From assembly GCF_016742135.1 (NCBI RefSeq), contig NZ_JACVCG010000004.1:1-64000 (forward strand): DNA of 64,000 nucleotides. The letters are read 5' to 3'. The position numbers and the translations under genes were made by a program. The notes under the pieces were generated by a model that did not search any database, was not told the origin of the DNA, and was given only the letters and a program-made list of their open reading frames with translations. Source of the stretch: Brevundimonas sp. Its GTDB lineage: Bacteria > Pseudomonadota > Alphaproteobacteria > Caulobacterales > Caulobacteraceae. Shown here one piece after another: positions 862 to 18,501 of this stretch. Numbering within the stretch: the stretch's first letter is position 1; each line of letters begins with the position of its first letter.

Positions 862-954
862 CGCCGGCATTTCAGACGGTTCAGACCATTCAGACGGTGT
901 TTCGACAAAAGGCAAGTTCTTGAGTTGTTCTCACGCCCGACCCATATTGCCGAC

Positions 955-1227
955 ATGGTCCAGACGACAGCCCGCAAGGCGCCAAAGGGCAGGGGCGCGC
1001 GCTCCAATGCCACCGGCCGCTATGAGGCCCATGTGGCCGAGGCCATGGACGACGGCTGGACCTCTGACGACGCCGAGGTCGCCCCGCTGCGCACCGAGCA
1101 GCTGATCGAGCGGCCGAAGACCATCATCTCGAAGAACACCAGCCCGGATGTCGGCTTTGACCGCTCCATCAATCCCTACAAGGGCTGCGAGCACGGCTGG
1201 CCCTATTATTCTGTTACACACCCATGA
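955..1227 (+). pseudogene. 5' fragment of chromosomal PA0069-family radical SAM gene, interrupted by the integrative element
   Basis: MVQTTARKAPKGRGARSNATGRYEAH...IISKNTSPDVGFDRSINPYKGCEHG then diverges to WPYYSVTHP-stop. Host sequence ends at 1199 and continues at 16268. Confidence 0.95.
1195..1199. other. Left junction core (attL), GGCTG; likely crossover dinucleotide TG at 1198-1199
   Basis: gagcacGGCTGgccctatt; the same GGCTG at 16268-16272 gives in-frame rejoining of the host gene. Confidence 0.88.
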
Positions 1228-2312
1228 CCGAGGCTGTGAAACTGAGGTCATCCGTTCGAGGGCGCGGCGCAAAATCGAACGCCAGCGGCCGCTTCGAAGC
1301 CACCCAGGTCGAGGCTTTCGACGACGGGTGGACCGATGAAGACGCCACCGCTTCGACCCAGATTCCGACGACGATAACCCCACTCCGCTCTCGAACCATC
1401 ATCAGTAAGAACCAGAGCCCCGACATCGGCTTTGAGCGTTCCATCAACCCATACAATGGTTGCTCCCATGGATGTAGTTACTGCTATGCGCGCCCGTCCC
1501 ATGCCTACTTGGGCCTATCCCCGGGCCTGGATTTCGAGAGCCGCATCTTCTTCAAGCCCGACGCCGCGCGTCTCTTGGAACAGGAACTCAGCGCCAGGAA
1601 ATACGTCTGCAAGCGCATCCACATAGGCGGCAATACAGACCCCTATCAGCCGGACGAGCGCGAACTGAAGATCACGCGTAGCGTGCTGGAGGTGGCGGCT
1701 CGGTTCAACCAGCCTGTCAGCGTCATAACTAAATCCAGCCTGATCACGCGCGACCTCGACATCTTGGGCCCGATGGGGTGCGACCGGCTGGCGACGGCAT
1801 TTGTCTCCATCACGACCCTGGATCGCGGTCTGGCCCGCGCGATGGAGCCCCGGGCCTCGACACCCGCTAGACGGTTGGTAGCGATTTCCCGTCTGGCCGA
1901 CGCCGGCGTGCCCGTCGGTGTCGGTTTTGCCCCTGTCATTCCCGGACTGAACGACCATGAGTTAGAGTCCGTCTTGGAAGCGGCCGCCAAGGCCGGTGCG
2001 GTGACCGCTATGTACGTCACCTTGCGCCTGCCGCTGGAGATCAAGGACCTGTTTCGCGAATGGCTGGCAGACGCCCGACCGGACCGTGCGGCCCGGGTCA
2101 TGTCGCTGGTTCGCCAAACGCGCGGGGGCAAGGACTACAACGCTGACTGGGCCCAGCGGATGAAGGGCGCCGGCCCCGTAGCCGACCTGATCGGGGCTCG
2201 GTTTAAGGCGGCCGTCAAACGCTATGGGCTGGACGGACCCCGCCACGATCTGGATACGACGAGGTTCACCGTTCCACACGGGTCAAGAAGCCAGATGGAC
2301 CTTTTTGAGTAG
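1224..2312 (+). CDS. PA0069-family radical SAM protein, full-length element-borne homologue of the interrupted gene
   Basis: INPYNGCSHGCSYCYARPSHAYLGLSPGLDFESRIFFKPDAA... to RSQMDLFE; collinear with both host fragments over its whole length. Confidence 0.95.
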   Translation: MTEAVKLRSSVRGRGAKSNASGRFEATQVEAFDDGWTDEDATASTQIPTTITPLRSRTIISKNQSPDIGFERSINPYNGCSHGCSYCYARPSHAYLGLSPGLDFESRIFFKPDAARLLEQELSARKYVCKRIHIGGNTDPYQPDERELKITRSVLEVAARFNQPVSVITKSSLITRDLDILGPMGCDRLATAFVSITTLDRGLARAMEPRASTPARRLVAISRLADAGVPVGVGFAPVIPGLNDHELESVLEAAAKAGAVTAMYVTLRLPLEIKDLFREWLADARPDRAARVMSLVRQTRGGKDYNADWAQRMKGAGPVADLIGARFKAAVKRYGLDGPRHDLDTTRFTVPHGSRSQMDLFE

Positions 2313-2447
2313 ACCGCGCGAGTATGTCTGCGATGCGCCAGAAGCGGTCATTGACCTATCGCTGGGGAGCGGACGTTCAGGTCACCGGGATATAGACGGT
2401 CGAACAGAACAAGGTGCTGGTGTCAGCGGCAAACCTACGAGCGGCTA

Positions 2448-2713
2448 GTTTGAAAACTCCCACTCCTGAGTGACGAAGTGGCGGGCGACTTCGGCGCTCG
2501 CGTAGCAGCAGGCGTCGTGCAGGCGATCATCTTTTTCAGGACCACAAGCATCAGCGACCGCCTTGATGCAGATGAATTGAGGCGGAGCGGCCCTCGAATG
2601 CTTGCACGCGTAGTAGAAGCCATATGATTCCATGTCTACGCCCCCGATATTGTCGTTAAGAGACTGGATGCTTTCGACAACGTCAGTGTCCGCAATCACC
2701 GCAGAGCCAGAGA
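2448..2713 (-). pseudogene. C-terminal fragment of a nucleoside phosphorylase / MTA-SAH nucleosidase-like protein, truncated by the IS
   Basis: LSGSAVIADTDVVESIQSLNDNIGGVDMESYGFYYACKHSRAAPPQFICIKAVADACGPEKDDRLHDACCYASAEVARHFV; upstream codons are lost at the IS end. Confidence 0.75.
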
Positions 2714-3523
2714 GTGCTGTCAACTTAACTCCCACGCATCGCCAAGTTGAGCGGCTTCGATCACGACGCCACAGCCGCATTCCAGGCAGCATGCGCCTGC
2801 GCCCGGAACGTCCGAAGCGTGCTTCGGCTGACCAAATGCCGCTGGGTGTAGAAGGTGTTGTAGACGGCGGCGTGGACCGTCAGGAACCGCTGCGCTGAGG
2901 CGGCGCTCTTGAAGCCGATCATCTGCCGCTCGCGCTTTCGGATCGGCAGATGCGAGTTCTCAGCACGGTTGTTCTCGCGGAGGCGGCCGGGGTGATGGCG
3001 GTCGCTGAGACCCAGCCGATCCAGAGCGGTCTTGTACGAGCCGAGGCCGTCCGTGACGATCGTCTCCGGCACAACTGGCTGATCCCGCAGCAGCTTTCTC
3101 AGGAAGCTTTCGGCGGTCGCGGCATCCCTTCGGCGCTCGACGGTGGAACCGAGCACCTCCCCTTCGTCGTCGACCGCGCGCCAGACGTACATGTACCGCC
3201 CGCCGATCGAGCTCACCATCTCGTCCAGATGCCAGCGCGGCGAAGGCGCCGGTCGGCGTCGCCGGAGGTTCCTGGCGATCTGCAGTCCGAACTTCCGGCA
3301 CCAGTCGCGGATCGCCTCGTAGGAGACGTCGATGCCGCGTTCGGCGAGGATCTCCTCAACGTCCCGGAGGCTGAGATTGAAGCGGTAGTAGAGCCAGACC
3401 GCGCGCTTGATGACGTCGCTTTCGAACCGGTGCCGCTTGAAGCTGATTTTCGCCATAAGTCCCTGCCCTGCATGAACTTTTCAGCATATCAGTAGAGACG
3501 GGTTAGGGTTAGACTGACAGCAC
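2714..3523. mobile_element. IS6-family insertion sequence (~810 bp)
   Basis: Terminal inverted repeats GTGCTGTCA (2714-2722) and TGACAGCAC (3515-3523), imperfectly extended inward; IS6-type transposase inside. Confidence 0.85.
2761..3456 (-). CDS. IS6-family transposase (DDE)
   Basis: FKRHRFESDVIKRAVWLYYRFNLSLRDVEEILAERGIDVSYEAIRDWCRKFG...WHLDEM...VTDGLGSY...NNRAENSH. Confidence 0.96.
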   Translation of the reverse strand: MAKISFKRHRFESDVIKRAVWLYYRFNLSLRDVEEILAERGIDVSYEAIRDWCRKFGLQIARNLRRRRPAPSPRWHLDEMVSSIGGRYMYVWRAVDDEGEVLGSTVERRRDAATAESFLRKLLRDQPVVPETIVTDGLGSYKTALDRLGLSDRHHPGRLRENNRAENSHLPIRKRERQMIGFKSAASAQRFLTVHAAVYNTFYTQRHLVSRSTLRTFRAQAHAAWNAAVAS

Positions 3524-3618
3524 CATCGCAGCGGCGGTTGGCTCCGCATCCAACCACTGCCTACAGTCCCAGTATCGCCTCAAGTCGTTCCATTCTCCTC
3601 GAACCGGAGCCATAACTG

Positions 3619-4422
3619 ATGAAATCCCTCCTAAGCGCCGCCGTTCTCGTCGCCACAACTTGCGGCGTAGCGCCTTGCCTGGCTCAGTCCATCGTACCCG
3701 GGCAGGTAGTTTTCGGAGCATTGGCTCCGGAGGACCGGGTGGATCACAGGGACGCACACTACGATTGTCATGATTTTGCGGGCGTCGCAGGCCAGTCGAT
3801 CGAAATCGTCATGCGCTCCATCGACGTGGATGCCTGGGTCGCGTTGCATCGTGGACCCGGCTGCCAGGGGGACTGGGAGGACGCCGACGACGACGGCGGG
3901 TTCGGCTTTCGAGCAGCGCATCTGGAGGCGACGCTGGATCAAGGGGGCACTTGGTCGTTCCGGGCCAGCAGCGCGGATTCACGGGACGTCGGAGACTACA
4001 TGATCGGGCTGGCTGTGGCGGACACGCCCGACGCCGCCCGCCTGCGCGCGGATCCCCTGACGATGACCGTCGGCAGTGAGGTGTCCGGCGAGTTGTCTCC
4101 GGTTGATGCCAACCTGGCGCCTGGGCGATATTTCGACTGCTATGAGGTCACCGTCGCCGGACCGGTGCAGGTGATGCTGAATGTCCGATCTGCGGATTTC
4201 AGCCCTGTCGGGCACGTCTACAGGGACCCGTCGTGCCGGCGGGGGTATATTGTAGAACTAGATTCCACGTCCGGGTCGGGCGAGGTTGATCCTCAAGAAT
4301 TTCGCGCGTCTGGGCTGCTCCCCAGAGCAGGGAGTTATTTCATCGCGGTGACCAGCGGCGGCCTTCGGGAGACGGGCGCTTACTCGATGAACATCACCGC
4401 GGCTCCTGCGACCCGACCGTAG
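3619..4422 (+). CDS. Secreted protein, PPC-domain-like repeats
   Basis: Signal peptide MKSLLSAAVLVATTCGVAPCLAQ; two repeats of the form ...YDCHDFAGVAGQSIEIVMRSIDVDAWV... and ...YFDCYEVTVAGPVQVMLNVRSADFSPVG... Confidence 0.7.
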   Translation: MKSLLSAAVLVATTCGVAPCLAQSIVPGQVVFGALAPEDRVDHRDAHYDCHDFAGVAGQSIEIVMRSIDVDAWVALHRGPGCQGDWEDADDDGGFGFRAAHLEATLDQGGTWSFRASSADSRDVGDYMIGLAVADTPDAARLRADPLTMTVGSEVSGELSPVDANLAPGRYFDCYEVTVAGPVQVMLNVRSADFSPVGHVYRDPSCRRGYIVELDSTSGSGEVDPQEFRASGLLPRAGSYFIAVTSGGLRETGAYSMNITAAPATRP

Positions 4423-4567
4423 GGTAGATCAAGCTGGGCCCCGGCTCCGGCGTGTGCGGCGCAGAACGCTTCGGCGGCAGGCGAATGACGCAACCTGACG
4501 TCCTCTCCTTCTGACCTTGACGCTGGATGCCGCCTCCAGCTTCACTTCGATCTCCAAGGAGTGAGCG

Positions 4568-4993
4568 ATGTCTCTGGATCGTACGATTTTGGCGTTTGCA
4601 GCGGCTCCCCTTGCGTCGAGTCTTTCGCTCGGAGCCGCCCTCAGCGCGTCCTCAGGCGCGGACCCGACGTCTTGGGTTTTCGGGACCTTGATGATCGGAC
4701 TCTTCGGCCTCCTGTTCACCGTTCCTGCGACGGTGGTCGGAGGCGGCTCTTCACTTCTTTTGCTCAAGGCGACCCGCCGCGACAGCCTGCCCTGGTTCAT
4801 TCTGGCAGGGGCGATCGTCGGTCTGCTCTCGGGATTGATCGTGTTGTCCAGCGGCGGAACCCCTGACGAGCACAGAGAGCCGGGCTGGGTGTTGTTGCTG
4901 ATGACCGCATTCGCAGGAGCGGTGGGCGGCGCAGCGTTCGGTTTGGTCCGCGGCCATCCGACCACTGATGGCGAGGTGTCTAATGTTCTTTGA
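4568..4993 (+). CDS. Small multi-pass membrane protein, unknown function
   Basis: Several hydrophobic segments; gene order with short gaps to the next ORF. Confidence 0.65.
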   Translation: MSLDRTILAFAAAPLASSLSLGAALSASSGADPTSWVFGTLMIGLFGLLFTVPATVVGGGSSLLLLKATRRDSLPWFILAGAIVGLLSGLIVLSSGGTPDEHREPGWVLLLMTAFAGAVGGAAFGLVRGHPTTDGEVSNVL

Positions 4994-5693
4994 GTTCATC
5001 GCGACTTCTCCGGCTCTGGCCGGTCACATTCAGGATCCGGCCGAGTGCCGCGTCGCGTCTCCCGAGCAGATCGCGCGGTTCGAAGCCGTCCGCACCGATC
5101 CCGCCTATGCCGACGCCCGCGCTCGCAACCTCGCTTACGAGGACGAGCTGTTCGCTGAGTTCGTCATTCCCGATGGCCCATGGCGATCGCCGCCTCCCGA
5201 CGCCCGCGTGCTGTTTCGAACGATCGCGCCGCCGGGCGGCCTCTACGGCAACACGATCTGGACGGCCGTCTGGCAGGAGAGCGACGGCTCCTGGTGGTTC
5301 TGGAAACAGGACCGTGACCCGCGGGTCGTCCAGCAGCCGCCCCAGCCCGGCTCCGCGCCCTCGGCCGCATCGGACACCGAGCGGTGGAAACCCTTGAGCG
5401 GTCGCCTTCGGGCGCAGAACGCGCAGGCGATCGAGGCGAGCCTCGAGGATCCTTGCCGCGCCGCGGCGGGACCTTTCTGGCCCGGCGAGGTTCCCTACGT
5501 GCCACCGCCTCCCCCTCCGGGCGTGCCCATGATTCCCCCGCCGCCTCCGACTCCGCCCGTTCCTGACTCCACCGTCGTCCATGTTCAGATGACCGAGCGG
5601 GGCCAACCGATGCGGCGGCTCGGCGCGTGGCGGACAGGGCATGGCAACCGGCTCATCGGCGCCGTCGCTTGGCCCCAACCGGAACTGGAGTAG
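4983..5693 (+). CDS. Hypothetical protein with proline-rich linker
   Basis: ORF with YVPPPPPPGVPMIPPPPPTPPVPDST linker; overlaps the end of the upstream ORF. Confidence 0.65.
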   Translation: MFFEFIATSPALAGHIQDPAECRVASPEQIARFEAVRTDPAYADARARNLAYEDELFAEFVIPDGPWRSPPPDARVLFRTIAPPGGLYGNTIWTAVWQESDGSWWFWKQDRDPRVVQQPPQPGSAPSAASDTERWKPLSGRLRAQNAQAIEASLEDPCRAAAGPFWPGEVPYVPPPPPPGVPMIPPPPPTPPVPDSTVVHVQMTERGQPMRRLGAWRTGHGNRLIGAVAWPQPELE

Positions 5694-5696
5694 GCG

Positions 5697-6191
5697 ATGG
5701 TCCGTGCCGCTCTTGCCCTGGTCCTCGTCCAGGCCCCGCTGACCCCCGTGCCCGACGCTCTCCGCGCTCCTGAGGCGGAGATCGTCGTGCTCGCCACAGG
5801 CGGCCCCGGAGACCCCGTCGCCGACCGGACCGTGCGACTGATCGAGGCGCTCGAAGCCGACGGCCGGCTCATTTACGGCCGGCCTTCCTTCGACGGCGAG
5901 GTGTTTCGACACTGCGTGACGGAAGACCCGAACCCCACCACCGAACGCCGCGACTGCGTGCGGGCCGCCATTCCTGAGCGCGCCTCGGCAACGCCGTTGG
6001 TGGTCATCGTCCTCGGCGACACGCGCGAGCGCGGCTCCTATCAGAGAATGGAGTGCATAGGTCCGCTCAGCGAAGGCTATCGCCGGTCGATCTACGTCAG
6101 GGATTTCGATCACCCCAGACCCGACGTGTCGGGCGGCACGCGCGACGCGGCTCTTCGGTGCATCGAGCAGGCGCTCGCAGCCAGCAGATAA
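5697..6191 (+). CDS. Hypothetical protein
   Basis: Continuous ORF in same-strand gene string, 3-nt gap to previous ORF. Confidence 0.6.
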   Translation: MVRAALALVLVQAPLTPVPDALRAPEAEIVVLATGGPGDPVADRTVRLIEALEADGRLIYGRPSFDGEVFRHCVTEDPNPTTERRDCVRAAIPERASATPLVVIVLGDTRERGSYQRMECIGPLSEGYRRSIYVRDFDHPRPDVSGGTRDAALRCIEQALAASR

Positions 6192-6212
6192 ACACTCCCG
6201 CGTAACCAGCCC

Positions 6213-6758
6213 ATGATCGCCAGGATGTCGCCCAGGATGCGCAATCTGTTTTGGACCTTCGCCTTCTGCCTTGTGACGGCTCTAGCGGCTCCATCGGCGC
6301 GGGCCGCGCAGATGACGCCTGCGGCGGAGGCCCCCGAGACGCAGGAACAGCGGCTCGACTGCAGCCGGCTCACCGACAGCCTTTACTGGTTCTGCTACGC
6401 GCTTGATCGGAGAAACTGCGGCGTGGCGGATCGCAGCCACTACTGGTTCTGCAGGGCGATCTCCGAGCGCAAATGCAATTTCGCGGATCGCTCGGACTAC
6501 TGGGAGTGCCGTGCGCTCACCGAGAGGCGGTGCAACTTCGCCGACACAGATCGGTACTGGCTGTGCAAGGCGTTCACCGAGGATTGCGCCCTTGCACCGA
6601 TCGAGCACCGCGACTTCTGCTATGCGATCGCTCCGGTCTATCGCGGCAGGGAGCCTTGGTGCCTCGTGAGTGAATGGTGCCCCCGTTGTCCGATGCGGAC
6701 ACGAAGGCATGGCTGCGTGGCGTTGGCGAAGGGACACGCCGCCGGACAGTCCGGCTAA
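6213..6758 (+). CDS. Secreted Cys/Trp-rich repeat protein
   Basis: Signal peptide then five ~19-aa repeats: DCSRLTDSLYWFCYALDRR/NCGVADRSHYWFCRAISER/KCNFADRSDYWECRALTER/RCNFADTDRYWLCKAFTE/DCALAPIEHRDFCYAIAPV. Confidence 0.7.
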   Translation: MIARMSPRMRNLFWTFAFCLVTALAAPSARAAQMTPAAEAPETQEQRLDCSRLTDSLYWFCYALDRRNCGVADRSHYWFCRAISERKCNFADRSDYWECRALTERRCNFADTDRYWLCKAFTEDCALAPIEHRDFCYAIAPVYRGREPWCLVSEWCPRCPMRTRRHGCVALAKGHAAGQSG

Positions 6759-6785
6759 ATGGCCGATTGCTCACGGAGAACGGAA

Positions 6786-7211
6786 ATGTCGCGGACGCAT
6801 ATGTTCCAGGCTGCGGTGCTGGCGATCTCACTGGGCCTTGCAGCCCCCGCCGGCCCAGCTTGTGCATGCACCTGCCTTCCCCCGGATCCCGCCGACCAGG
6901 TGGACGAGGCCGACGTCATCTTCGTCGGCAGGGTCGAGCGCGTCGTTCGCGTGGGCCAGGCTGGCGGCCGACCGATCAGCGCGACCGTCTTCAGGATCGA
7001 ACGGTCGCTCAAGGGCGACGTCGGAACGTGGACCGCCGTTCGTCACCAGTCCGGTGACAGCAGCCTTTGCGGCATGCAGTTCGACCGCGACCGCGAACAC
7101 GTCGTCTTCGCGCGTCGAGCCGAAGGGCGCCTTTACGCCCAGGCTTGCAGCCGGGACTGGCTGCCGCTCGAGCGATATGAAGCGGAGCTGATTAAGCTTC
7201 AGACTCGATGA
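6786..7211 (+). CDS. Secreted TIMP/NTR-like domain protein
   Basis: Signal peptide followed by CACTCLPPDPADQVDEADVIFVGRVERVV, typical of bacterial NTR/TIMP-like proteins. Confidence 0.65.
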   Translation: MSRTHMFQAAVLAISLGLAAPAGPACACTCLPPDPADQVDEADVIFVGRVERVVRVGQAGGRPISATVFRIERSLKGDVGTWTAVRHQSGDSSLCGMQFDRDREHVVFARRAEGRLYAQACSRDWLPLERYEAELIKLQTR

Positions 7212-7263
7212 TCACAGGCATTGCTGAGTGGGCGAGATGGTGCCCGCATTCCTGTGGTCCCGT

Positions 7264-7611
7264 TCAGGTTCCCCAAGCCTCGCAGGATCCCGGCATCCAA
7301 TCCACGCTGGCGCCTTCCGGTACTTGTCCGCGCCCGAGAAGCAGCTTTTCCGTGTTCGCCGGCGCCGTCACGAGCTGCTTGCCGCCCGCACGAGCCACCA
7401 CCACGCAGTAGGGGGTGTTCGACGTATTCTTCGCCCAGAGCTCTCGGTACCCGTAGGTCGAGCTGTTGTAGCCGGGGGGATAATGCCAAACGGTGATTTG
7501 CCCCCATTCGGTGCTGTGAACTTCCGGTTCGGGAGACAGGAATATCGTCTCACACCCCAACAAAACCGTGGATGCCGAAACGATGAAGAAGGCTTTCAGT
7601 AGTCGCGCCAT
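7264..7611 (-). CDS. Putative lipoprotein
   Basis: MARLLKAFFIVSASTVLLGCET lipobox. Confidence 0.65.
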   Translation of the reverse strand: MARLLKAFFIVSASTVLLGCETIFLSPEPEVHSTEWGQITVWHYPPGYNSSTYGYRELWAKNTSNTPYCVVVARAGGKQLVTAPANTEKLLLGRGQVPEGASVDWMPGSCEAWGT

Positions 7612-7797
7612 TTGCAGGATACTCTCCTTAAGTCAGACATTTGTGGAATACTTGGATGGCCCCCGATTCAGGTATCCAAGCCTCGTAGAGGAGTCCGAAT
7701 CCAGCAGCGCCTCGATCGTGGAGGTTGAGAAAGAGGAAATCAGATTCCAGCACCGCAACGTCGAAGCGCTTGCGCGGCAAGAAAGTCGGATCCCAAG

Positions 7798-8889
7798 TCA
7801 TGGCCGCCACCCGGGGATCGCGGCCGTCATGCGCCACATCATCTGGTCCAGCTTCAGGGTGACGTCCGAGCCAGGGCCGCCGGTGTTGGTCAGTGCCGCC
7901 ATCACATAACCCGAGCGCGTCTTGCACATGAAGGCGGCCGTGCCGTGGATGATGCCCGTATGCCACCAGTTGTCCCACTGGTTGATCTGCCATCCGTGGC
8001 CGTAGGCCGCGCCGGCGAACGGCCCGGTGGCCATCAACCTCGCCGAGGCAGGACGCAGGATTCGTCCCGGGCCCTCCGTCCCGTCGACGGCCGTCACGAA
8101 TCCGACCAACTCCCTGGCGCTGGCGATCCAGCCGCCGTTCGCGTCCATGCGGCGCACGTCCACCGCGGTCGGATCATCGAAGATCGTCAGCGCGCGATAC
8201 TCCACCTCGCCGACGCCCCGCGCGCGGTCCCCGACGCGCATGCCCCCCGCACCGCAACGGGACAGGACGTCGCGACGAACCCAGCCCTCATAGGGTTCCC
8301 CCGTCACCTGCTCGATGACCCTGCCAAGGATGAGATAGGCGAAGTTCGAATAGCTTTGCCGTGTGCCGGGCGCGGCTTCCAGCGGACGCTCGGCCAGGGT
8401 TCTGGCGATGAGCTGACGTTGATCGAGGTCGGGGTGGGCGAAGACCGGATCACGCCCGTCGTTGGTCCACCCTCCTGCCGTGTGGTTGAGCAGGTGACGC
8501 ACACGAAGCGCCCGGAGCGGCCCGGAGGTCGGGCCGAACCGATCGCCAAGAATGGACCCCGGTCCGAAGATCGTGGAGTCCAGGGTCAGTCGGCCCGTTT
8601 CGATGAGCCGCATGACGGCCGCCGCCGTGATCGGTTTGGAAAGGCTGGCGATGCGGAACCGGTGATCATGCGTCAGCGGGGCGCCGGCCTGGTCGGCCCT
8701 CCCCCAAGCCCCGACGAAGCCGAGCGTGCCGTTGCGCGCCATCGCGACCTGCAATCCCGGCGCGCGCGTCGCGGCGAGGAAGCTCGCGGCCTCGGCGTCG
8801 ATGGCGGGGTTAGCTTGCCGCGCAAAGGTTGGCGACGTCGCCGCGAGGGCCAGTCCCCCAGCCAAGAGGTTTCTGCGCGTCTGGCTCAT
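7798..8889 (-). CDS. Serine hydrolase, beta-lactamase (class C-like) family
   Basis: FRIASLSKPITAAAVMRLIETGRLTLD (SxxK), YSNFAYLILGRVIEQVTG (YxN), WWHTGIIHGTAAFM. Confidence 0.92.
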   Translation of the reverse strand: MSQTRRNLLAGGLALAATSPTFARQANPAIDAEAASFLAATRAPGLQVAMARNGTLGFVGAWGRADQAGAPLTHDHRFRIASLSKPITAAAVMRLIETGRLTLDSTIFGPGSILGDRFGPTSGPLRALRVRHLLNHTAGGWTNDGRDPVFAHPDLDQRQLIARTLAERPLEAAPGTRQSYSNFAYLILGRVIEQVTGEPYEGWVRRDVLSRCGAGGMRVGDRARGVGEVEYRALTIFDDPTAVDVRRMDANGGWIASARELVGFVTAVDGTEGPGRILRPASARLMATGPFAGAAYGHGWQINQWDNWWHTGIIHGTAAFMCKTRSGYVMAALTNTGGPGSDVTLKLDQMMWRMTAAIPGWRP

Positions 8890-8969
8890 TACCCCTCTCT
8901 CTTCTCGCCAATTTTCAAGCGAGCCATAGACCGCGATTTTTCCCGGCCCCGCGTGCTTCAGACATGGCG

Positions 8970-9443
8970 TCAGTCGACTGCGCTATCTGTGATGCGCAAG
9001 GTGGCGTCGGGCGTCGCCCATTCTTCCTTTGCACCGACCCAGATGTCGTATTGGCCCGATGGCGCGGCAAAGATCACCAAGCCAGGATCGCCGCCGTTGA
9101 GGCCACTGTCGTCGTCACACGCCCAGCTCCCGTTCGGAAAATTGACCAACAAGGTCGTGTCCGCTTTCGAATGCACCAAGAACACCAAGGGGGCTTCGCC
9201 AGCGGTGTAGTCGACCACGAAGTGAGGGCCTCGCGACACGAAGCCCCGGCAACTTGGAAGCAGTTCAGTGACGTCGATGTTCTCCAGTCCGCCGGCCTTT
9301 AGCTCCACGGCGTGCTCCCCGCCTGCGGCCAAGCTCACCCGACCATAGATGGGCTCAATTCCTATCTCCTGCGCGTTCACCGATGCGGCGAGCGTGAGCT
9401 GCAGCGCCGAGGCGACGAAAAGAGCTTTGATCATGACTGTCAT
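8970..9443 (-). CDS. Secreted protein, PPC-like domain
   Basis: Internal start MTVMIKALFVASALQLTLAASVNAQE signal peptide; ADTTLLVNFPNGSWACDDDSGLNGGDPGLVIFAAPSGQYDIWVG. Confidence 0.65.
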   Translation of the reverse strand: MTVMIKALFVASALQLTLAASVNAQEIGIEPIYGRVSLAAGGEHAVELKAGGLENIDVTELLPSCRGFVSRGPHFVVDYTAGEAPLVFLVHSKADTTLLVNFPNGSWACDDDSGLNGGDPGLVIFAAPSGQYDIWVGAKEEWATPDATLRITDSAVD

Positions 9444-9719
9444 CCTTTCCCCAAGACGATGAAGGTTTTCGTTTAGACCTCCAACCCTCTTAAAGCTGAT
9501 GGTTGCGACCCGGAGGTTGTCGCGCGCGCTATTGCAGCGTCGCAATCCTTGCACTGCTGGCGACGGGAAACGATCGCTCCCGTTGCCTGCTACGAGTGAG
9601 ACGCGGATGTGCTGGGTCTTAGCTCCAGTGCCGGGCCTGAAGCGGACGGGTCGAAGGTCGGCCATGAGTCAGTTCCGGTCATCGGTCGTCTAATCCGCTA
9701 GCACTTCGCGGCGTCGGGA

Positions 9720-10169
9720 CTACAGGTACCCTCCCCCCGCGCGCCACGCGGCCACGGCGCCATTGAGCGGCGCGTTGGTGTCGCGGATCATCATCTGATC
9801 AGGCAGCGTGCCGACCGCGAAGGCCGTGTGTTCGTTGAGCCAGACGTCAACGTGGCCTTCAACATAGCCTGGGTACTGGTCCGCCAGACCGCGGATGGCG
9901 TGGTCGCTACCGATGAGAACCAAGCCAAGGGCAAACCGCAGGTCGGACCCGTCGCTATTCCCTTCCAGATGACATTTCATTGTTCCGGGCAGATCGGCCA
10001 CGTGATGCGAATACAGCGTGATACCCGGCGTCAGGTCCACCCAGCCTTGGCCCGGGATTTTGACCGTCAGCGTTGACTGCATGATCAGTGCGATGTCGCC
10101 CGGACCCGGACGCAGGACCGGGCCGCTACGGAAGCAGTGCGCGTGTTGAAAAACGTAGTCAGGCACCAT
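9720..10169 (-). CDS. Hypothetical protein downstream of the serine recombinase operon
   Basis: ORF on the same strand 2 nt downstream of the recombinase stop. Confidence 0.5.
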   Translation of the reverse strand: MVPDYVFQHAHCFRSGPVLRPGPGDIALIMQSTLTVKIPGQGWVDLTPGITLYSHHVADLPGTMKCHLEGNSDGSDLRFALGLVLIGSDHAIRGLADQYPGYVEGHVDVWLNEHTAFAVGTLPDQMMIRDTNAPLNGAVAAWRAGGGYL

Positions 10170-10171
10170 GT

Positions 10172-12271
10172 CTATTCATCTTCCGTGGGGACGCCGAACT
10201 GTCCGATGACGACGACGAAGGCTTCCGGAGCGCCAATGCGGATCGGCGGCAACGGCAGGTGCATCGACGGGATGGGCTCGGCGAACGCGAGGCGTTTCCA
10301 CTCTTCGTCGGAGCGTTCGATGTGGTTCCAGACATGGCCCGAGCGCTTCGGGCCGCACGAGATGCTCCGAATTTCGCCAGCCCTGTCGAGGTAGCGGAGT
10401 ACATTCAGGACGCGTCGCCCGTGTGATCCGGCCGGGCTATAGTCGGGCTCCCAGTCCGACGCGTAGCCCTCCGCCTTGACGATGGCATCGATGATGGAAC
10501 GGCGGGTCAGGGGAACGTCCGTGTCGTCCAACATCCGCGCCACCAAGGGCAAGTCGGCGTAAGTCTGGGCGTCAAGTCGGTCATCTTCCGGAATGTAATC
10601 AGTATAATAGCGGAACCGCACAGTCGCGGGGTCCTGCACTGTTCCCGGATGTGAAGAATGCAGGATGACACCAGCGTCGTCCGCCAGGTCGACCAGGGCC
10701 GAGAGCGGGCCTTCGACGGTGACGCGCACGGGTCCCTGGCCGCGCTTGTCGATGCGCTCCAGCTCGATGGGGGTCAGGGTGACGCGCTCGATCAGGCCGC
10801 GCAGGGTGTCGCGGGCGCGGCCGGCTTCGCGGTCGTCGCCGGCGAGGGCGGAGCGCAGGTCGTCGAGCATGGCGTCCAGGCGGGCGATCACGGCCTCGGC
10901 CTCCAGGGGCGCGGGGGCGGGACGCGGCTTGACCTTGGTCTGGCGCTCGAAGCGCTGGCGCTCGGCCTCCAGCCGGTCCAGCTCCTTCATCATCAGCTCG
11001 CCCGCCAGGCCCTGGACGCGGCCGTCGCGGACCGTGTCCATGATATTGGCGATCTGGCGCTCCACCTCATTTAGATGGGTGGCCCCGGCCTCGGTGCGGG
11101 CGGCCAGTTCGGCGTTGGCGCGCTCGATCTCGGCGCGATACTCGGCGAGGTAGGGCTCAATCAGTTCGGGCTTCAGCAGCCGGCCCTTGAGGCCCCATAG
11201 CACCAGGTCCTCCAGGTCCTCGCGGGCCACGCGGCGGCGGTTGTCGCAGGTCCCCTCGCGGGCCGAGCCGATGCAGCTCAGCTTGTCGGAGACGACCGCA
11301 TAGGCCTTGCCGCAGACGCCGCAGCGGATGAGACCCGAGAGCAGATAGTCGGGGCGACGCCGTCCCCGGAAACTTGAGGGGGCGACGCGGCGGGCCTCGA
11401 TGCGATCCTGGACGGCCTGGAACAGTTCGTCCTCGACGATGCGCAGGTGGGGCACGGGGATGACCAGGCGTTCGCCCTGGGGGGTGACCTTGGCCTTGGA
11501 GGTGCCCTTGTGGCGGTTGTGCTTGGTGACGGTGCGGCCCCATTCGTTGACGCCGACATAGAGCCTGTTGCGCAGGATTCCGGTGCCGACGTCGCGGTTG
11601 CCGTAGATGGCGCCGGGCAGCCAGGGTCCGCCTCGGGGACCGGGCACGCCCTCGGCGTTGAGGGCCTTGGCGATCTCCAGGGGGGTCATGCCGGCGACGT
11701 AGTCGGTCATGATGCGGCGGACGACGGCGGCCTGGACGGGATCGGGCTCGCGCTGGCCGTTCTTGCCGTTCAGCGCCAGGACCATGCGATAGCCGTAGGC
11801 GGGCTGCCCGGAGATGCGGCCGTCCTTGACGGTGCCCTCCTGGCCTCGGCGGGTCTTCTCGGCCTGCCCCTTCACATAGCGGGCGTTCTGGGCGGCCTTG
11901 AAGGCGACCTCCATGTCGCTGACCACGCCGGAGGAGACGGTGCAGACGACGATGTCCAGGGCCTCCATTTCCTCCAGCATCCCGTGGGTGCCCGAGGCGC
12001 TGCGGCTGAGGCGGTCCAGGTCCTCGACGAGGATGACGGTGAACTCTCCCCGGTCGGCGGCGGCCAGCATGGCGAACAGGCCGGAGCGCCCGATCACCGT
12101 GGTGCCGCTGCGCTCGGCGTCGTGATAGGCGCCGGCCTCGACCCAGCCTTGGCGCTCGGCGTAGGCGCGGCAGAGGGTCAACTGGTCCTCGATCGACTTG
12201 AACGTCTGGTGGCCGGTCGAATAGCGGGCGTAGACGGCGTAGCGGGTGCCCGACGGCGGCAGGGCGCTCAA
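10172..12271 (-). CDS. Large serine recombinase (resolvase + recombinase + zinc ribbon domains)
   Basis: RYAVYARYSTGHQTFKSIEDQ...VILVEDLDRLSR...LSGLIRCGVCGKAYAVVSDKLSCIGSAREGTCDNRRRV; TTG start in TTGA overlap. Confidence 0.95.
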   Translation of the reverse strand: MSALPPSGTRYAVYARYSTGHQTFKSIEDQLTLCRAYAERQGWVEAGAYHDAERSGTTVIGRSGLFAMLAAADRGEFTVILVEDLDRLSRSASGTHGMLEEMEALDIVVCTVSSGVVSDMEVAFKAAQNARYVKGQAEKTRRGQEGTVKDGRISGQPAYGYRMVLALNGKNGQREPDPVQAAVVRRIMTDYVAGMTPLEIAKALNAEGVPGPRGGPWLPGAIYGNRDVGTGILRNRLYVGVNEWGRTVTKHNRHKGTSKAKVTPQGERLVIPVPHLRIVEDELFQAVQDRIEARRVAPSSFRGRRRPDYLLSGLIRCGVCGKAYAVVSDKLSCIGSAREGTCDNRRRVAREDLEDLVLWGLKGRLLKPELIEPYLAEYRAEIERANAELAARTEAGATHLNEVERQIANIMDTVRDGRVQGLAGELMMKELDRLEAERQRFERQTKVKPRPAPAPLEAEAVIARLDAMLDDLRSALAGDDREAGRARDTLRGLIERVTLTPIELERIDKRGQGPVRVTVEGPLSALVDLADDAGVILHSSHPGTVQDPATVRFRYYTDYIPEDDRLDAQTYADLPLVARMLDDTDVPLTRRSIIDAIVKAEGYASDWEPDYSPAGSHGRRVLNVLRYLDRAGEIRSISCGPKRSGHVWNHIERSDEEWKRLAFAEPIPSMHLPLPPIRIGAPEAFVVVIGQFGVPTEDE

Positions 12272-12519
12272 GACCCGGCCTCCTCGACCCCGTCGTCATC
12301 GAAGATGCTGTCATCGAAGACCTCGATGACGATGTCCATCTCCTCCATGGCCTCCATCGCCTCCAGCAACGCCTGGGCGCCCAAGGCGCCGTGGTCGGGC
12401 CGGTCCAGGTCCTCGACCCCGCCATCCTGCTCGGCACAGGCCCGGCACCGGGGCTGCCGGTCGGTGGAGTAGCGGGCGTAGAGGGCGACGCGTGCGCGGG
12501 GCGGCGGCGGGGCGCTCAC
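12268..12519 (-). CDS. Mini resolvase-like protein (internally deleted catalytic domain)
   Basis: RARVALYARYSTDRQ retained, then EDLDRPDHGALGAQALLEAMEAMEEMDIVIEVFDDSIFDDD resembles the late part of a resolvase domain. Confidence 0.6.
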   Translation of the reverse strand: MSAPPPPRARVALYARYSTDRQPRCRACAEQDGGVEDLDRPDHGALGAQALLEAMEAMEEMDIVIEVFDDSIFDDDGVEEAGS

Positions 12520-13259
12520 GACTTGACCTTCCGGCGCTTCTTCTCAGCGTGGCCGTAACGCGCCCTGAGCGAACGCTCCTGGCGGAGAGACTCGGTCATG
12601 ACGCTCCTGAACGCCACGTCCAGATCGGTGACGACGCCGCCGACGACGGTGTGGACGGCGACGCCCAGGGTCTTCAGCTCCGCCAGCAGACGAGGGACCT
12701 GCGAGGCGTCGCGGCTCAGGCGGGACACGTCCTCGACCAGCACGACGTCGAAGGCGCCACGTCCGGCCTCCGCGATCATCGCATCGAGGCTGGGGCGGGA
12801 CCCCGTCATGCCGCTGACGGCGTTGTCCTTGTAGACCGTGACCGTCTCCCAGCCCCGCTCGGCCGCATAGGCCTCGCAGGCGTTCCACTGGTCGGCGAGC
12901 GGATAGGGCGTCGCCCGAGAGGCGCTGGCGCAGCGCAGATAGATCGCGCAGCGGTGAGCCGGGCTGGGGGCCGGAACGGGGGCGGCGGCGGGAACATCGT
13001 CTTGCGGCCCGTCATCTTGCGGGACGGCGGCGATGGTGACGACGCGGCCGGCGCCGGCGTCGGCGACGATGACCTCGAACTCCCCGTCGCCGAGGCGATC
13101 GACCAGGCCGTTCAATCGGGCTCCCGCCAGCCCGACACCGGGGCGATCCTCGTCGATCATGGTCACGACCCGCAGACCGGCGCGCTCGGCGTGCCGGGCG
13201 CAGGTCGTCAGGGTCGATCCTCCGGCCATGTAGAGCGCGGCCCGCGCCGGGGCCGTCAC
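12516..13259 (-). CDS. Tandem resolvase-domain protein without recombinase DNA-binding domains
   Basis: Degenerate N-terminal unit (AALYMAGGSTLTTCARHAERAGLRVVTMIDED...EFEVIVADAGAG) plus second unit (CAIYLRCASASRATPYPLADQWNACEAYAAERGW...DVVLVEDVSRLSRDASQVPRLL). Confidence 0.75.
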   Translation of the reverse strand: MTAPARAALYMAGGSTLTTCARHAERAGLRVVTMIDEDRPGVGLAGARLNGLVDRLGDGEFEVIVADAGAGRVVTIAAVPQDDGPQDDVPAAAPVPAPSPAHRCAIYLRCASASRATPYPLADQWNACEAYAAERGWETVTVYKDNAVSGMTGSRPSLDAMIAEAGRGAFDVVLVEDVSRLSRDASQVPRLLAELKTLGVAVHTVVGGVVTDLDVAFRSVMTESLRQERSLRARYGHAEKKRRKVKS

Positions 13260-13495
13260 TGGACGCCTCCCAGGACCTCGGCGCGGGCCGTAATCCGCGC
13301 CAGCGACAGCATCAGGGGCAGCAGTTCGGCCGTCTCATCATCGAGGCCGTTGCTCAGGCGGTGTTCGGCCTGGGCCTGGCGCTGATGGCTGAGCAGGCAG
13401 CCGAACGAGGCGTCGCCGTGGATCGGCCGGGGTTGAAAGGCCGATGCGCCGTCCGGTTCGAACGGCGCATCATGGATGGGATCGGCATAGGACAT
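13256..13495 (-). CDS. Small hypothetical protein, first gene of recombinase operon
   Basis: 79-aa ORF with GTGA overlap into the next gene and a promoter-like region upstream. Confidence 0.55.
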   Translation of the reverse strand: MSYADPIHDAPFEPDGASAFQPRPIHGDASFGCLLSHQRQAQAEHRLSNGLDDETAELLPLMLSLARITARAEVLGGVQ

Positions 13496-13509
13496 CAGGC
13501 GGCTCCTTC

Positions 13510-13555
13510 ATTGTGAGTGGAGCGCCTATTAGGTCTACGGTCTATTGTGAGTCAA
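13510..13555 (-). promoter_or_regulatory. Candidate operon promoter TTGACT-N18-TAATAG with two ACTCACAAT direct repeats
   Basis: On + strand: ATTGTGAGT at 13510-13518 and 13544-13552; AGTCAA 13550-13555; CTATTA 13526-13531. Confidence 0.55.
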
Positions 13556-13560
13556 GGTCT

Positions 13561-14310
13561 TTATGAGGTGGACTCGGGCGGCGGCAGGTCGTTGACGGCC
13601 GCGTGGAGCGCCAGAAGGGTGGGCAGGCCGACCTCGATGGTGATCAGACAGTCGGTCTGCGCGGATGCGTCACCGGCATTGGGAGGTTCCGACCAGGCCT
13701 CGGCGGGGGCGTAATGTTCGTGGAAGGCCTCGACCTCCTCCAGCCGTTTCCAGGGGCGGCCCAGATGAATCTCAGCCGCGAGGCCGGGCACATAGCTGAC
13801 GACGCGCAGGGCGCGGGCGTAACCGGGGCGGAACGAACCGCCGGCGGCGGCCGACTTGACCACCATCCACTGCATTGAGAACTCCGCCTCGGATACGCCG
13901 CTCGTCGGTTGTTCCCAGTCCGTCATATAGGCCTCGTGCCACTCGGCTATCGCCGGAGCGTTGGCGATCAGCCGTTCGACGGCGTCGGCGAACCCGACCT
14001 TCTCGCGCAGGAAATCCATCCAGGCCGGCATGTCCTCGCGCTGCATGTCCCGGTTCGGATCGTCGGGGTGCGGAACCAGGGATCGCAGGTTATGGACGGC
14101 GGCGACGGTGCCTTGGGGACTGCTGTCGCCACAGGTCGCCAGCAGCAGGGTCGCGGCGTCCTTGACGGTCATGATCGCCGCGCCGACGCCCCGCTTCGAG
14201 GACCGGATCAATCCCTCGTCGCGGACCTGCCGGGCGATATGAGCGATGGTCGCCTGGCCCCGACGGTCATGCCGAGCGATGGCTTCGATGAGAGCGGGAA
14301 GGCGCGCCAA
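13561..14310 (-). CDS. Hypothetical element protein
   Basis: Long ORF coding away from the integrase; no family recognised. Confidence 0.6.
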   Translation of the reverse strand: MARLPALIEAIARHDRRGQATIAHIARQVRDEGLIRSSKRGVGAAIMTVKDAATLLLATCGDSSPQGTVAAVHNLRSLVPHPDDPNRDMQREDMPAWMDFLREKVGFADAVERLIANAPAIAEWHEAYMTDWEQPTSGVSEAEFSMQWMVVKSAAAGGSFRPGYARALRVVSYVPGLAAEIHLGRPWKRLEEVEAFHEHYAPAEAWSEPPNAGDASAQTDCLITIEVGLPTLLALHAAVNDLPPPESTS

Positions 14311-14450
14311 ACGTGATGTCTCCTGACGTGGAACTATCTCCCCTTAGCGCATTGTGCTCTCAACTCCAAAAGAGCCTTGGCGTGCCGGTCTTATCATCCA
14401 CGGCTTGAATCGCGACGTCCTCGACATCGAGGTGGGAACGGCATTCGTAG

Positions 14451-16220
14451 TCAGTTTCCCTTGCGATGACGCCGGATGTAAGTGGCCAACCAGCCCGCGT
14501 TCGCGGGGGCCGGTCCGGTCCAAGGTTGCTCGTCTACCGGATAGTTTGAGAGGGTCGTTTCCACTCGCTCCGCCAAGGCCGGAGCGTCCAAATCTGGAAA
14601 CACCGCTTGCGTGAATGCCAGTCCATCGAAGCGCATGATGACCTTCCCATTGTTGTCGAACAGGCAGGCTAAGACACCTCCCGGCAGGAACAGGCCGATC
14701 TGACGTCCATCGCCGGGATCGACGCTGCACACGACCTTGCAGCCCAGTCCGACGATCGCATTGTGGACGCGCAGCCGCGCCGCCTGGCGGGTCGCCGGAT
14801 CGGGGTCGTCAAGAGCGTCGCGAACGTCCCGGACCCGCTCCAGGTGCTCGGCCGGGCTCACAGCTCCCTTCGCCGCTTCCAGCGCCTTGGCGGCGTCGTC
14901 ACGTTGCTCCATCAGATTGCGGAGGGATCGTTCGGCATCGACCAGCTTCGCTTCGATCGCCTCCGAGGCGCCAATCCGGCCAAGGGCCTCGACCCACCGA
15001 TCGACCTGCTCCTTCTGGTTGGAGATCGCCTTCTCAAGGTCGGCGAGAACCGCCGCCGAGGAAGCGGTCTGGTCCGGCTCGGCGAAGTAGCGATCATCGA
15101 GCGCGAGGTGGAGGATTTCATCCAACGCGGCGCGCTCGAATGGGTCGTAACGGAACATGGCCTTCTGCGAGCATCCGCGCCGGCGCGCCGCGAAGTTGCA
15201 CTGCCAATAGCGGTTGGCATTCGGCTGTCCGCTGGACCGAAGATGCATCCGGTTGCCGCAGGACTCGCACACGACAACGCCGGCGAACAAATTGGCGACG
15301 CTTCGGGTGTGGCGCCCCCCTTTCCGGGGGCCGGTCTTTCGCGATTCCACCTGAGCCCGAGCTCGCGCCACAAGGTCCGCATCGACGATCCGGGGGTAGT
15401 AGCCGACGATGCGTTGGTCGAACTTGGTCCGCTTGGCGCTAGTGTTGGAGAAGCCAGGCACATAGTCGCCTTCGACCGAAGGCTGGCTGAGGATCAGCTT
15501 GACCGAGCCGATTTCCCACGTCGGAGTCGACTCTGGCTTGCGCCATTTGCCCCACGCGGGGATGCCCCGCTCATTCAGCTCCTTCGCGATCCAACGCGCA
15601 CCCTTGCCCTGGGCCGCCATCTCATAGACGTCGCGGACCATCTGCGCGCGATCCTCGATAATCTCGAAGCCGCTCCGGTCGGCCTTGGCGATCAACCAAC
15701 CGGGCGCCTTTGCGGTGATGATCTGCCCCGTGGTCCGAGCCCGTTCCATGTTGCGGCCTATGCGGTCGAGCACACGTTCCGACTTCTGCTGGCTCTCGTC
15801 GTTCGCCAGCTTGGCTCGCATCAGAATTTCGAACACGCCCATGAGGTCGGCGCGAAGCCCCGCATCGTCAAAGACCTTGCCGCCATCGACAGTGGCGATG
15901 GTCAGCCCCGCCGCACACAGGTCCTCCATCCAGCGGAGGGTCGTCCGGGTCTCCTGACGAGACAGCCGATCCAGCTTCTCGACAACCAGGACCGTTCCAG
16001 CTCCGACGCTGCCGTCACGCACGCGGTTGGCAAAGAGGCCGAGTTCTCCGGCGGACAGGTGCGCCCCTGTCCATGCCGACCGTCCCAAGTCCTCAATCAC
16101 CTCATCGACAGGCCATCCCCGCTGCTCACAGAATTGTTGGCAGAGCTCCAGTTGCCGGTCGCGACTGGCTCCCCTCTCCTGCTTGGGCGTCGAAAAGCGT
16201 ATGTAGATAACAGCACGCAT
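14451..16220 (-). CDS. Large serine recombinase, probable integrase of the element
   Basis: MRAVIYIRFSTPKQERGASRDRQ...LVVEKLDRLSRQETRTTL...LFAGVVVCESCGNRMHLRSSGQPNANRYWQC; start 48 bp from the right junction. Confidence 0.96.
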   Translation of the reverse strand: MRAVIYIRFSTPKQERGASRDRQLELCQQFCEQRGWPVDEVIEDLGRSAWTGAHLSAGELGLFANRVRDGSVGAGTVLVVEKLDRLSRQETRTTLRWMEDLCAAGLTIATVDGGKVFDDAGLRADLMGVFEILMRAKLANDESQQKSERVLDRIGRNMERARTTGQIITAKAPGWLIAKADRSGFEIIEDRAQMVRDVYEMAAQGKGARWIAKELNERGIPAWGKWRKPESTPTWEIGSVKLILSQPSVEGDYVPGFSNTSAKRTKFDQRIVGYYPRIVDADLVARARAQVESRKTGPRKGGRHTRSVANLFAGVVVCESCGNRMHLRSSGQPNANRYWQCNFAARRRGCSQKAMFRYDPFERAALDEILHLALDDRYFAEPDQTASSAAVLADLEKAISNQKEQVDRWVEALGRIGASEAIEAKLVDAERSLRNLMEQRDDAAKALEAAKGAVSPAEHLERVRDVRDALDDPDPATRQAARLRVHNAIVGLGCKVVCSVDPGDGRQIGLFLPGGVLACLFDNNGKVIMRFDGLAFTQAVFPDLDAPALAERVETTLSNYPVDEQPWTGPAPANAGWLATYIRRHRKGN

Positions 16221-16267
16221 GGGCGAAGTTTAAGCTGCGTGCTCCCGTGCGTGCAATAGGATCGTAG

Positions 16268-16272
16268 GGCTG
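16268..16272. other. Right junction core (attR), GGCTG; likely crossover dinucleotide TG at 16271-16272
   Basis: gatcgtagGGCTGtatctactgctatgcc; codon phase (GGC TGT) matches the left host fragment. Confidence 0.88.
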
Positions 16273-17116
16273 TATCTACTGCTATGCCCGACCCTCTCAC
16301 GCCTGGATGGGCCTGTCCCCGGGGCTGGATTTCGAGAGCCGGATCTTCGTCAAGCCGGACGCCGCCCACCTGCTGGAGCAGGAGCTGGCCCATCCGAAAT
16401 ACGTCTGCAAACGCATCCACGTCGGCGGCAACACCGACCCCTATCAGCCGGTCGAGGACGAGCGGCAAACAACCCGCAGCCTATTGCAGGTCATGCAGCG
16501 CTTCAATCAGCCCTTCAGCCTGATCACCAAGTCGTTCCGGGTCACCCGCGACCTCGACATCCTCGGCCCCATGGGGCGCGAGAACCTGGCCCAGGTGTTC
16601 ATCTCGATCACCACGCTGGACCGCTCGCTGGCCCGGGCGATGGAGCCGCGCGCCTCGACCCCCGAGCGGCGGCTGGAGGCGATCAAACGCCTGTCCGATG
16701 CCGGCGTGCCCGTCGGCGTCGGCTTTGCCCCCGTCATCCCGGGCCTCAACGACCATGAGCTGGAGGATGTGCTGAAGGCGGCGGCAAAGGCCGGGGCCAG
16801 CCGCGCCATGTATGTCACCCTGCGCCTGCCGCTCGAGATCAAGGATCTGTTCCGCGAGTGGCTGGAGGATGCCCGGCCGGACCGCGCGAAACGGGTCATG
16901 TCGCTGGCCCGCCAGACGCGGGGCGGCCGCGACTATGACGCCGACTGGTCCCAGCGGATGAAGGGCACCGGTCCGGTCGCCCAGCTGATCGCCACCCGCT
17001 ATCGCGCGGCTGCCAGACGCTATGGCCTCGACCAGCCCCACCCCCTGCTGGACATCACCCGCTTCCGCGTCCCGCCCGAGTTCCGACCCCAGATGGACCT
17101 GTTCGACCTGGCGTGA
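16268..17116 (+). pseudogene. 3' fragment of chromosomal PA0069-family radical SAM gene
   Basis: GCIYCYARPSHAWMGLSPGLDFESRIFVKPDAAHLLEQELAHPKYVCKRIHVGGNTDPYQP... to RPQMDLFDLA. Confidence 0.95.
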
Positions 17117-17119
17117 GGC

Positions 17120-18355
17120 CTAGCGTCGGAAGGTGCCGACCAGTTCGACGTGGGCGGACCACAGGAACTGGTCCACGGGGGTGACGGCCTCCAGCACAAA
17201 GCCCGCGTCGACCAGCAGCCGGGCATCGCGGGCAAAGGTCACGGGGTTGCACGACACCCCGACCACGGTCGAGGCGCCCGAGGCCGCGATCTGCTCGACC
17301 TGGGCCTGGGCTCCGGCGCGGGGCGGGTCGAAGACCACCGTGTCGATGCCCTTCAGGTCATGCGGTGTCAGGGGCCGGCGGAACAGGTCGCGGGCTACCG
17401 CCTCGATCGGCGACAGGCCCTTCAGCCCCGCCCGCCCGGCCTTCAGCGCGGCAATGCCGCCCTCGGCGGCGTCGGCGGCCAGCACCGGCGCGACCGAGGC
17501 CAGCGGAAAGGTAAAGGTGCCCGCGCCACAGAACAGGTCGGCGATCCGCTTCGCCCCCTTCACGCCGTCGAGCACCCGGGCGACCATGGCGGCCTCGGCC
17601 TCGGGCACGGCCTGCAGGAAGCCGCCGGGCGGAAGAGTCACCTCGGCGCCCCCGAAGCGAACCCGCGGCGCCCGGCGCATGGCCAGCACCTCGCCCGCCA
17701 GACTCAGCCGCGCCAGATCGGCGGCCACGGCGGCGCGGATGGCCTGCTGGCGGCGGTCGGCGGGCAGGCCGCCCGAGCGCCGCTCGACCCCGGTGACGTC
17801 GACGTCCAGACCGGTCTCGGTCAGGGTCACATGCAGGGTCGGGGCCGACTTCGGATGGTCGAGAAAGGCCGCCGCCACCGGGATCAGCCGGGGCAGGGCC
17901 GCGACCAGGCGCGGATCGGCGATGACGCAGGTCTGGATCGGCACCAGCGCCCACGACCGTCGCCCCTTGAAGCCGAGGCTGACGGTGCCGTCAGCGGCCC
18001 GCCGGGCATGCAGGGCCAGCCGACGCCGCGTGGCGGGCGGGACGCCGACGGTCGGCCGGATGTCGGTCTCCAGCCCCTGTCGGCCAAGCGCCATTCGCAC
18101 CTGCTCGCCCTTCCACGCCAGATAGGGCTCGGTCCGCCAGTGCTGCAGGGCGCAGCCGCCGCAGGTGCCGAAGTGGGGACAGGGCGGCACCTGTCGCTCG
18201 GGCGAAGGCGCGACCAGCGTCAGCCCCTCGGCGCGGCCGTCGCGCACCTCGGCCTCGATCACCTCCCCCGCCAGGGTCAGGGGGGCGAACACCGGACCGG
18301 GGGCCACCCCGTCGCCCTGGGCGCCCACATGGGAAATCGTCAGCCGTTCGCGCAT
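17120..18355 (-). CDS. TrmA/RumA-family class I SAM-dependent RNA (uracil-5) methyltransferase
   Basis: PCPHFGTCGGCALQHW; IADLFCGAGTFTFPLA; DPPRAGAQAQV; GVSCNPVTFARDA. Confidence 0.93.
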   Translation of the reverse strand: MRERLTISHVGAQGDGVAPGPVFAPLTLAGEVIEAEVRDGRAEGLTLVAPSPERQVPPCPHFGTCGGCALQHWRTEPYLAWKGEQVRMALGRQGLETDIRPTVGVPPATRRRLALHARRAADGTVSLGFKGRRSWALVPIQTCVIADPRLVAALPRLIPVAAAFLDHPKSAPTLHVTLTETGLDVDVTGVERRSGGLPADRRQQAIRAAVAADLARLSLAGEVLAMRRAPRVRFGGAEVTLPPGGFLQAVPEAEAAMVARVLDGVKGAKRIADLFCGAGTFTFPLASVAPVLAADAAEGGIAALKAGRAGLKGLSPIEAVARDLFRRPLTPHDLKGIDTVVFDPPRAGAQAQVEQIAASGASTVVGVSCNPVTFARDARLLVDAGFVLEAVTPVDQFLWSAHVELVGTFRR

Positions 18356-18501
18356 GGCGCCTCCAAGCAGCTTTCTGGCGGCAGGGCAAACGCCTGAAAC
18401 CTGAACGAAGATGAACGGCCCGCTCAAATCCCGTTCAGTCGCGGTCCCCTACAAGGACGGTGACAGGGGCCAGAGGGCTCCGGGATTTCAAGGAGCCGAC
18501 C

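Follow-up and report, generated by a model that had tools for sequence, protein, structure and literature searches.

An integrative element that splits a radical SAM gene of Brevundimonas and carries a whole substitute gene at its junction with the host fragment

The window, i.e. the whole stretch of Brevundimonas DNA analysed here (64,000 nucleotides), contains near its left end a radical SAM gene of the PA0069 family broken at its CxxxCxxC motif by an element with a large serine integrase, which occupies approximately positions 1198 to 16272 (Table 1). GGCTG is the sole sequence common to both host fragments (1195-1199 and 16268-16272). When positions 955-1197 and 16271-17116 are joined a single open frame is obtained (...NPYKGCEHGCIYCYARPSH...), and its product is 95% identical to the intact protein of G021, a sister species that matches the Brevundimonas halotolerans record. 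The corresponding locus of G021 (L146) is an uninterrupted allele of the gene and aligns with the window over positions 912-1199 at 92% and then, free of gaps, over 16268-20000 at 88%, the two alignments overlapping by 5 bp. The ~15 kb insertion found in the window is a true site-specific insertion. An earlier reading made from the DNA letters only (the sequence-only reading) had placed the split at the Gly-Cys codons of the motif and had proposed to look for the empty site in related Brevundimonas; the halves do form one frame and align continuously as a single gene, and the empty allele exists in G021, where the 5-bp overlap corresponds to GGCTG. The same reading had drawn the fragments as 955-1199 and 16268-17116, of which the split and the shared GGCTG stand, while the right half proper starts at 16271 and not at 16268, because TG is most likely the dinucleotide at which crossover occurs. 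The halves can likewise be joined to an intact frame in three other interrupted genomes (G075, G105 and G061). The gene is present in 123 of the 131 genomes of the genus, nearly always single and intact, and no further radical SAM copy was found in the window's own genome (2.6 Mb). No solved structure resembling the PA0069-family protein by sequence was found.

The integrase gene adjoins one end of the insertion, and a short core overlap, a dyad-symmetric attP and an empty-site allele are all present; the element belongs to the site-specific integrative elements (genomic islands) that use a large serine integrase. No relaxase or conjugation genes were recognised among the scanned part of the window ORFs, the other elements being incomplete. 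The attP arms mirror each other around a central TG (TAGGGC-TG-GCCCTA) at 17 of 25 positions, a symmetry equally good in 1 of 20000 shuffles, and a CTGTTRCACAC block is common to the attP arms and related elements. Serine integrases have a known crossover geometry, and TG (1198-1199) is most likely the crossover dinucleotide because it is the centre of the reconstructed attP dyad. In the window and in G075 (L069:11612-12334) a protein of 240-249 aa is encoded immediately 3' of the integrase, and it is a candidate for an accessory or directionality function. The elements of G075 (L069:13138-15776) and Marinicauda (L068:12705-14747) also contain a second large serine recombinase; in the window and G075 a shorter protein with a resolvase domain comes before it, the two frames being close or overlapping.

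Table 1 Features of the interrupted radical SAM locus and of the inserted element, in window coordinates
Feature	Position	Strand	Evidence or remarks
LexA-type box GTTCTTGAGTTGTTC	916-930	+	Exact GTTCN7GTTC upstream of host gene
Host gene, 5' part	955-1197	+	NF033668 match; frame continues to TGA at 1225-1227
attL core GGCTG	1195-1199	+	Also at 16268-16272; attP dyad centre; empty site in L146
attP arm, left end	1200-1223	+	Read in the interrupted host frame as its final codons (PYYSVTHP); dyad with right end
ATGA, host-frame stop overlapping replacement start	1224-1227	+	Same overlap in G075, G064 and between copies 1 and 2 of G051
Element-borne complete radical SAM gene (replacement)	1224-2312	+	NF033668, 497.8 bits
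Recoded attB-equivalent in replacement	1470-1478	+	GGA-TGT-AGT (Gly-Cys-Ser), host GGC-TGC/T-ATC
IS6-family transposase inside element	2761-3456	-	NF033587, 215 bits
Variable cargo	3619-9665		Beta-lactamase-fold protein (7798-8889, -) and proteins without assigned function
Second serine recombinase module	10172-13259	-	699-aa large recombinase, 83-aa fragment and 247-aa resolvase-domain protein in overlapping frames; Pfam PF00239, PF07508, PF13408
249-aa protein without family match	13561-14310	-	Directly downstream of integrase; kept in G075 (47% identity)
Large serine integrase, right end	14451-16220	-	Pfam Resolvase, Recombinase, Zn_ribbon_recom; PHROG 95 integrase, 2.6e-75
attP arm, right end	16221-16270		Dyad with left arm
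attR core GGCTG	16268-16272	+	Identical core at attL; empty-site comparison with L146
Host gene, 3' part	16271-17116	+	NF033668 positions 70-348; without start and first cysteine

The host frame is not completed by the element: it ends at a TGA in the attP arm, and a separate full-length gene comes next. The product of this gene is a PA0069-family protein over positions 1-348 of 348 of NF033668, with 497.8 bits for a cut-off of 360; its CxxxCxxC cluster motif is intact (CSHGCSYC), and it is 77% identical to the host right half, in agreement with the full-length, diverged homologue that had been recognised from the sequence. That a whole second gene is supplied and not a spliced end, as had also been proposed, extends beyond the window, the same design being present in three further genomes of the genus.

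A search for other PA0069-family genes split here with a serine recombinase nearby, as suggested by the sequence-only reading, gave insertions at this codon in 6 of the 131 genomes of the genus, and in four of them (the window, G075, G064 and G051) the substitute is located at the left junction. The G075 element contains an integrase 75% identical to that of the window, a counterpart of the 249-aa protein (47%) and also the second recombinase module. The G064 element is interrupted by contig ends and no integrase was recovered, but its copy is 98% identical in nucleotides to the one in G075. Both genomes belong to different host lineages despite carrying nearly identical copies, suggesting transfer of the element, which is probably still mobile. 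In G051 the host left part is followed by a first substitute, itself split at the codon of insertion, and then by a second one, truncated at codon 241. This is a nested insertion in which a new copy was supplied at each round, and the first (invaded) copy keeps the C before TG, like the hosts. The cargo of G064 includes CBASS genes (cyclase, TRIP13, 4TM effector) and a P-type ATPase, and that of G075 metal efflux. The CBASS-like set of G064 (SMODS cyclase, TRIP13-type ATPase and 4TM effector) adjoins the substitute (L056:1681-5304).

The comparison of host and element copies by phylogeny, which had been put forward earlier, showed that the replacement did not arise from the gene whose place it takes, an origin rejected by the AU test (p=6e-5 for the window and 0.0016 for G075). 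The 5' third of the gene is alike among the element copies (71-88% between the window and the others, host mean 64%), and by segment comparison the 3' part of the G075-type copies is host-like. The element copies are mosaics and a single origin is not claimed. Actually, a quick tree had placed all of them in one clade with G046, a grouping that was abandoned when the careful tree gave two groups and the segment comparison mosaic genes. The sole radical SAM gene of G046 (L061:8350-9435) is of the element type and 88% identical to the window copy. It is free-standing, with its own LexA-type box, unaltered crossover codons and a different gene neighbourhood, and it is possibly the source or a settled descendant of the element copies. 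Such a close free-standing relative with its own box, and the mosaic copies with host-like 3' parts in the G075 type, are what would be expected if an ordinary element had gained a chromosomal (G046-like) gene by recombination, the features of the junction being coincidental. We regard this as the least probable of the readings considered here, since the same joint between the attP arm and the start of the copy is found in four genomes and near-identical copies are found in different host lineages; because of this recurrence, copy and attP arm are taken to travel as one.

At four of the five junctions the interrupted frame runs ~8-10 codons into the attP arm and stops on the ATGA of the substitute. 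The fifth, between the host and the first copy of G051, has no ATGA overlap. There is no ribosome-binding site before the starts of the window copy and of the second G051 copy, and a weak ribosome contact is possible at the start of the G075 copy (-2.7 kcal/mol). The missing ribosome-binding site is weak evidence, because the host start in the window likewise has no evident one. The simplest reading implied by these junctions would be that translation of the substitute is coupled to that of the interrupted frame, and that this coupling arises only with integration.

The host gene has a box (GTTCTTGCTTTGTTC) located 38-40 nt before its start across the genus, and the exact GTTCN7GTTC is found in 72 of 83 distinct 5' ends of the gene; of the remaining 5' ends most are element copies, which lack the box, or wrongly called starts with the box visible nearby. 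The LexA motif known from Caulobacter has this same form, GTTCN7GTTC (PMC12700426), and it is found also at three Sphingomonadales genes and at the Marinicauda gene. The single exact match in the window is not significant alone, and the box is read as LexA-type because its position is conserved across species. A close form of the box appears three times in the window's genome, before the host gene, before a higBA-like toxin-antitoxin operon and before a GIY-YIG nuclease gene (L134, L135), the last two names being taken from translations and not from a family search. Control of the radical SAM gene by LexA, as part of the SOS response, is likely. A LexA-type box is absent before the element copies, and integration would therefore set them behind a probable SOS promoter. 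One contig (G084:C27, L123) contains two diverging radical SAM copies, each with its own LexA-type box and one of them ended by the contig end.

The hosts encode Gly-Cys-Ile across the crossover, mostly as GGC-TGC/T-ATC (ATC in 66 of 68). The element copies have GGA-TGT-AGT in the window, where the site spans GGATGTAGT, GGT-TGT-TCC in G075 and G064, and GGA-TGT-AGC in the second copy of G051; the free-standing relative in G046 keeps GGC-TGC-ATC. This recoding is found in all the mobile copies readable across the site. Among the 489 positions with a conservation of at least 95% in hosts, there are only two at which all three element lineages are altered and G046 is not, one of them being the second base of the recoded Ile/Ser codon. 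The use of two serine codon families would require at least two events, or one event plus a later shift and a reversal in G046. The recoding suggests self-immunity of the copy against the integrase, to be read with the fact that it is seen in three lineages at most and that the copies differ from hosts at other positions too. The altered site, together with the second element of G051 inserted inside the copy of the first, might also indicate that the copy serves chiefly as a second or altered site in the competition for attB, shaping superinfection, with the enzyme being secondary. However, a decoy would not need an intact gene of 1.1 kb, and the element copies are under purifying selection (dN/dS 0.12-0.17 between diverged copies) that acts on the whole protein, indicating that the enzyme matters, and we hold a decoy role to be very improbable.

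The remaining two insertions of the genus, in G105 and G061, have a ~42% identical integrase at the same codon and no intact copy. The G061 insert contains baseplate and tail genes and the G105 insert a tail-fibre-assembly gene, and both are prophage-like. Marinicauda pacifica has at the same site a metal-efflux island of 40 kb that likewise lacks a copy; its integrase is 76% identical. The gene directly behind the host fragment in these three cases (L059, L053 and L068, respectively) is the integrase and not the substitute, and the integrases of the window and Marinicauda lie on opposite sides of the same TG, so the orientation of attP decides which element gene lands behind the host promoter. 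In the elements without substitute, an integrase located behind a LexA-type promoter could be DNA-damage inducible. The start of the G105 integrase overlaps the host-frame stop as ATGA.

Across 299 genomes of the family and 385 of the class, integrase relatives in another genus of the family leave the radical SAM gene intact. In annotated phages and plasmids the radical SAM proteins were either distant or encoded by ordinary PA0069 genes of large replicons. One 40-kb contig of IMG/VR (L067), an incomplete record, has the right half beside a 52% identical integrase and no full copy. The junction pattern had 45 matches in viral contigs, none near a radical SAM gene, and they were taken as chance.

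Hosts live with elements that lack a substitute at the same codon, and the radical SAM gene is therefore dispensable. The sequence-only reading had held that replacement allows the use of a conserved site without cost to the host; the replacement stands, and a cost-free use is not supported, elements without substitute being tolerated at the same codon. This tolerance of gene loss, the existence of sister elements without the copy and the CBASS and metal efflux genes borne by the islands would all fit a copy that is just cargo, a useful DNA-repair gene with an incidental place at the attL side and no role in replacement. Against it, the copy is always the first gene of the left end and directly follows part of a gene homologous to it, three diverged elements preserve the ATGA register, and the copy has no promoter box of its own and a recoded attB-equivalent in each of them. 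We consider the cargo explanation unlikely.

The best explanation is probably an island that carries a whole substitute, with coupled expression regulated by the host and an altered attB of its own. The attB is the part of a conserved radical SAM gene that codes for CxxxCxxC, the gene being probably under LexA/SOS control, and the element brings a whole substitute rather than restoring one end of its target. After integration the substitute directly follows the host box, the promoter region and the first ~80 host codons. Transcription from the host promoter would read into the element, and ribosomes coming from the host fragment would cross the approximately nine codons of the attP arm, terminate at the TGA and begin again at the ATG that overlaps it. 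The substitute would be expressed under host regulation and solely when integrated; in the excised circle it would be without host promoter and translating frame. The altered attB-equivalent would make the copy a poor target for the integrase, preventing it from being broken in turn, and the older G051 copy, with the host base still before TG, was broken in such a way. Position, ATGA overlap and altered attB suggest that the copy is more than a spare and represents a fitted replacement. We give roughly even chances to a more demanding version, that of a natural break-and-rescue element in which an SOS gene is disrupted, the substitute is switched on only by integration and the recoded attB stops re-breaking by the element or its relatives. 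Rescue is in any case not required, because elements without a substitute are tolerated at the same site. With respect to the sequence-only reading, the LexA-type box, the ATGA overlap, the recoding and the nested insertion are new.

Elements such as e14 and phage 21 (in icd) and SXT/R391 (in prfC) restore one end of their protein-coding target. They resemble the window element in that integration takes place inside a conserved protein gene and a working product remains. However, they replace the missing 5' or 3' end and the product is a host-element fusion, whereas the window element contributes an entire diverged gene with its own start and both host fragments are left behind. In some mycobacteriophage immunity systems integration at attP truncates the repressor gene, and there, too, integration itself changes the expression or the product of the gene at the att site; in the window it is an element gene that would come under a host promoter and behind a frame that is being translated. 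Synthetic break-and-rescue designs disrupt a target and carry a recoded rescue gene, the working copy being altered at the target site, as here. The window element differs from them in using a serine integrase and no nuclease, in having no sexual inheritance bias and in hitting a dispensable target, and its altered-site resistance is putative. Integrative mobilizable elements (IMEs) with serine recombinases and internal sites, for example in rumA, are known, and a review classes internal sites as leaving a disrupted gene (PMC5704250). They share with the window element the serine integrase and the internal site in a conserved dispensable gene, but no substitute is described for them in that review. 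The Marinicauda island and the inserts of G105 and G061 are of this ordinary kind. Searches of the open-access literature gave no precedent for the substitution of a whole gene.

With whole-gene substitution, integration would become possible at internal coding sites that are strongly conserved, and an element gene would be tied to host regulation; the arrangement would be a natural equivalent of the recoded-rescue designs known from synthetic gene drives. The elements at the same codon that have their integrase behind the probable SOS promoter represent a natural experiment on the orientation of attP. Finally, the uncharacterised radical SAM enzyme likely belongs to the alphaproteobacterial SOS response.
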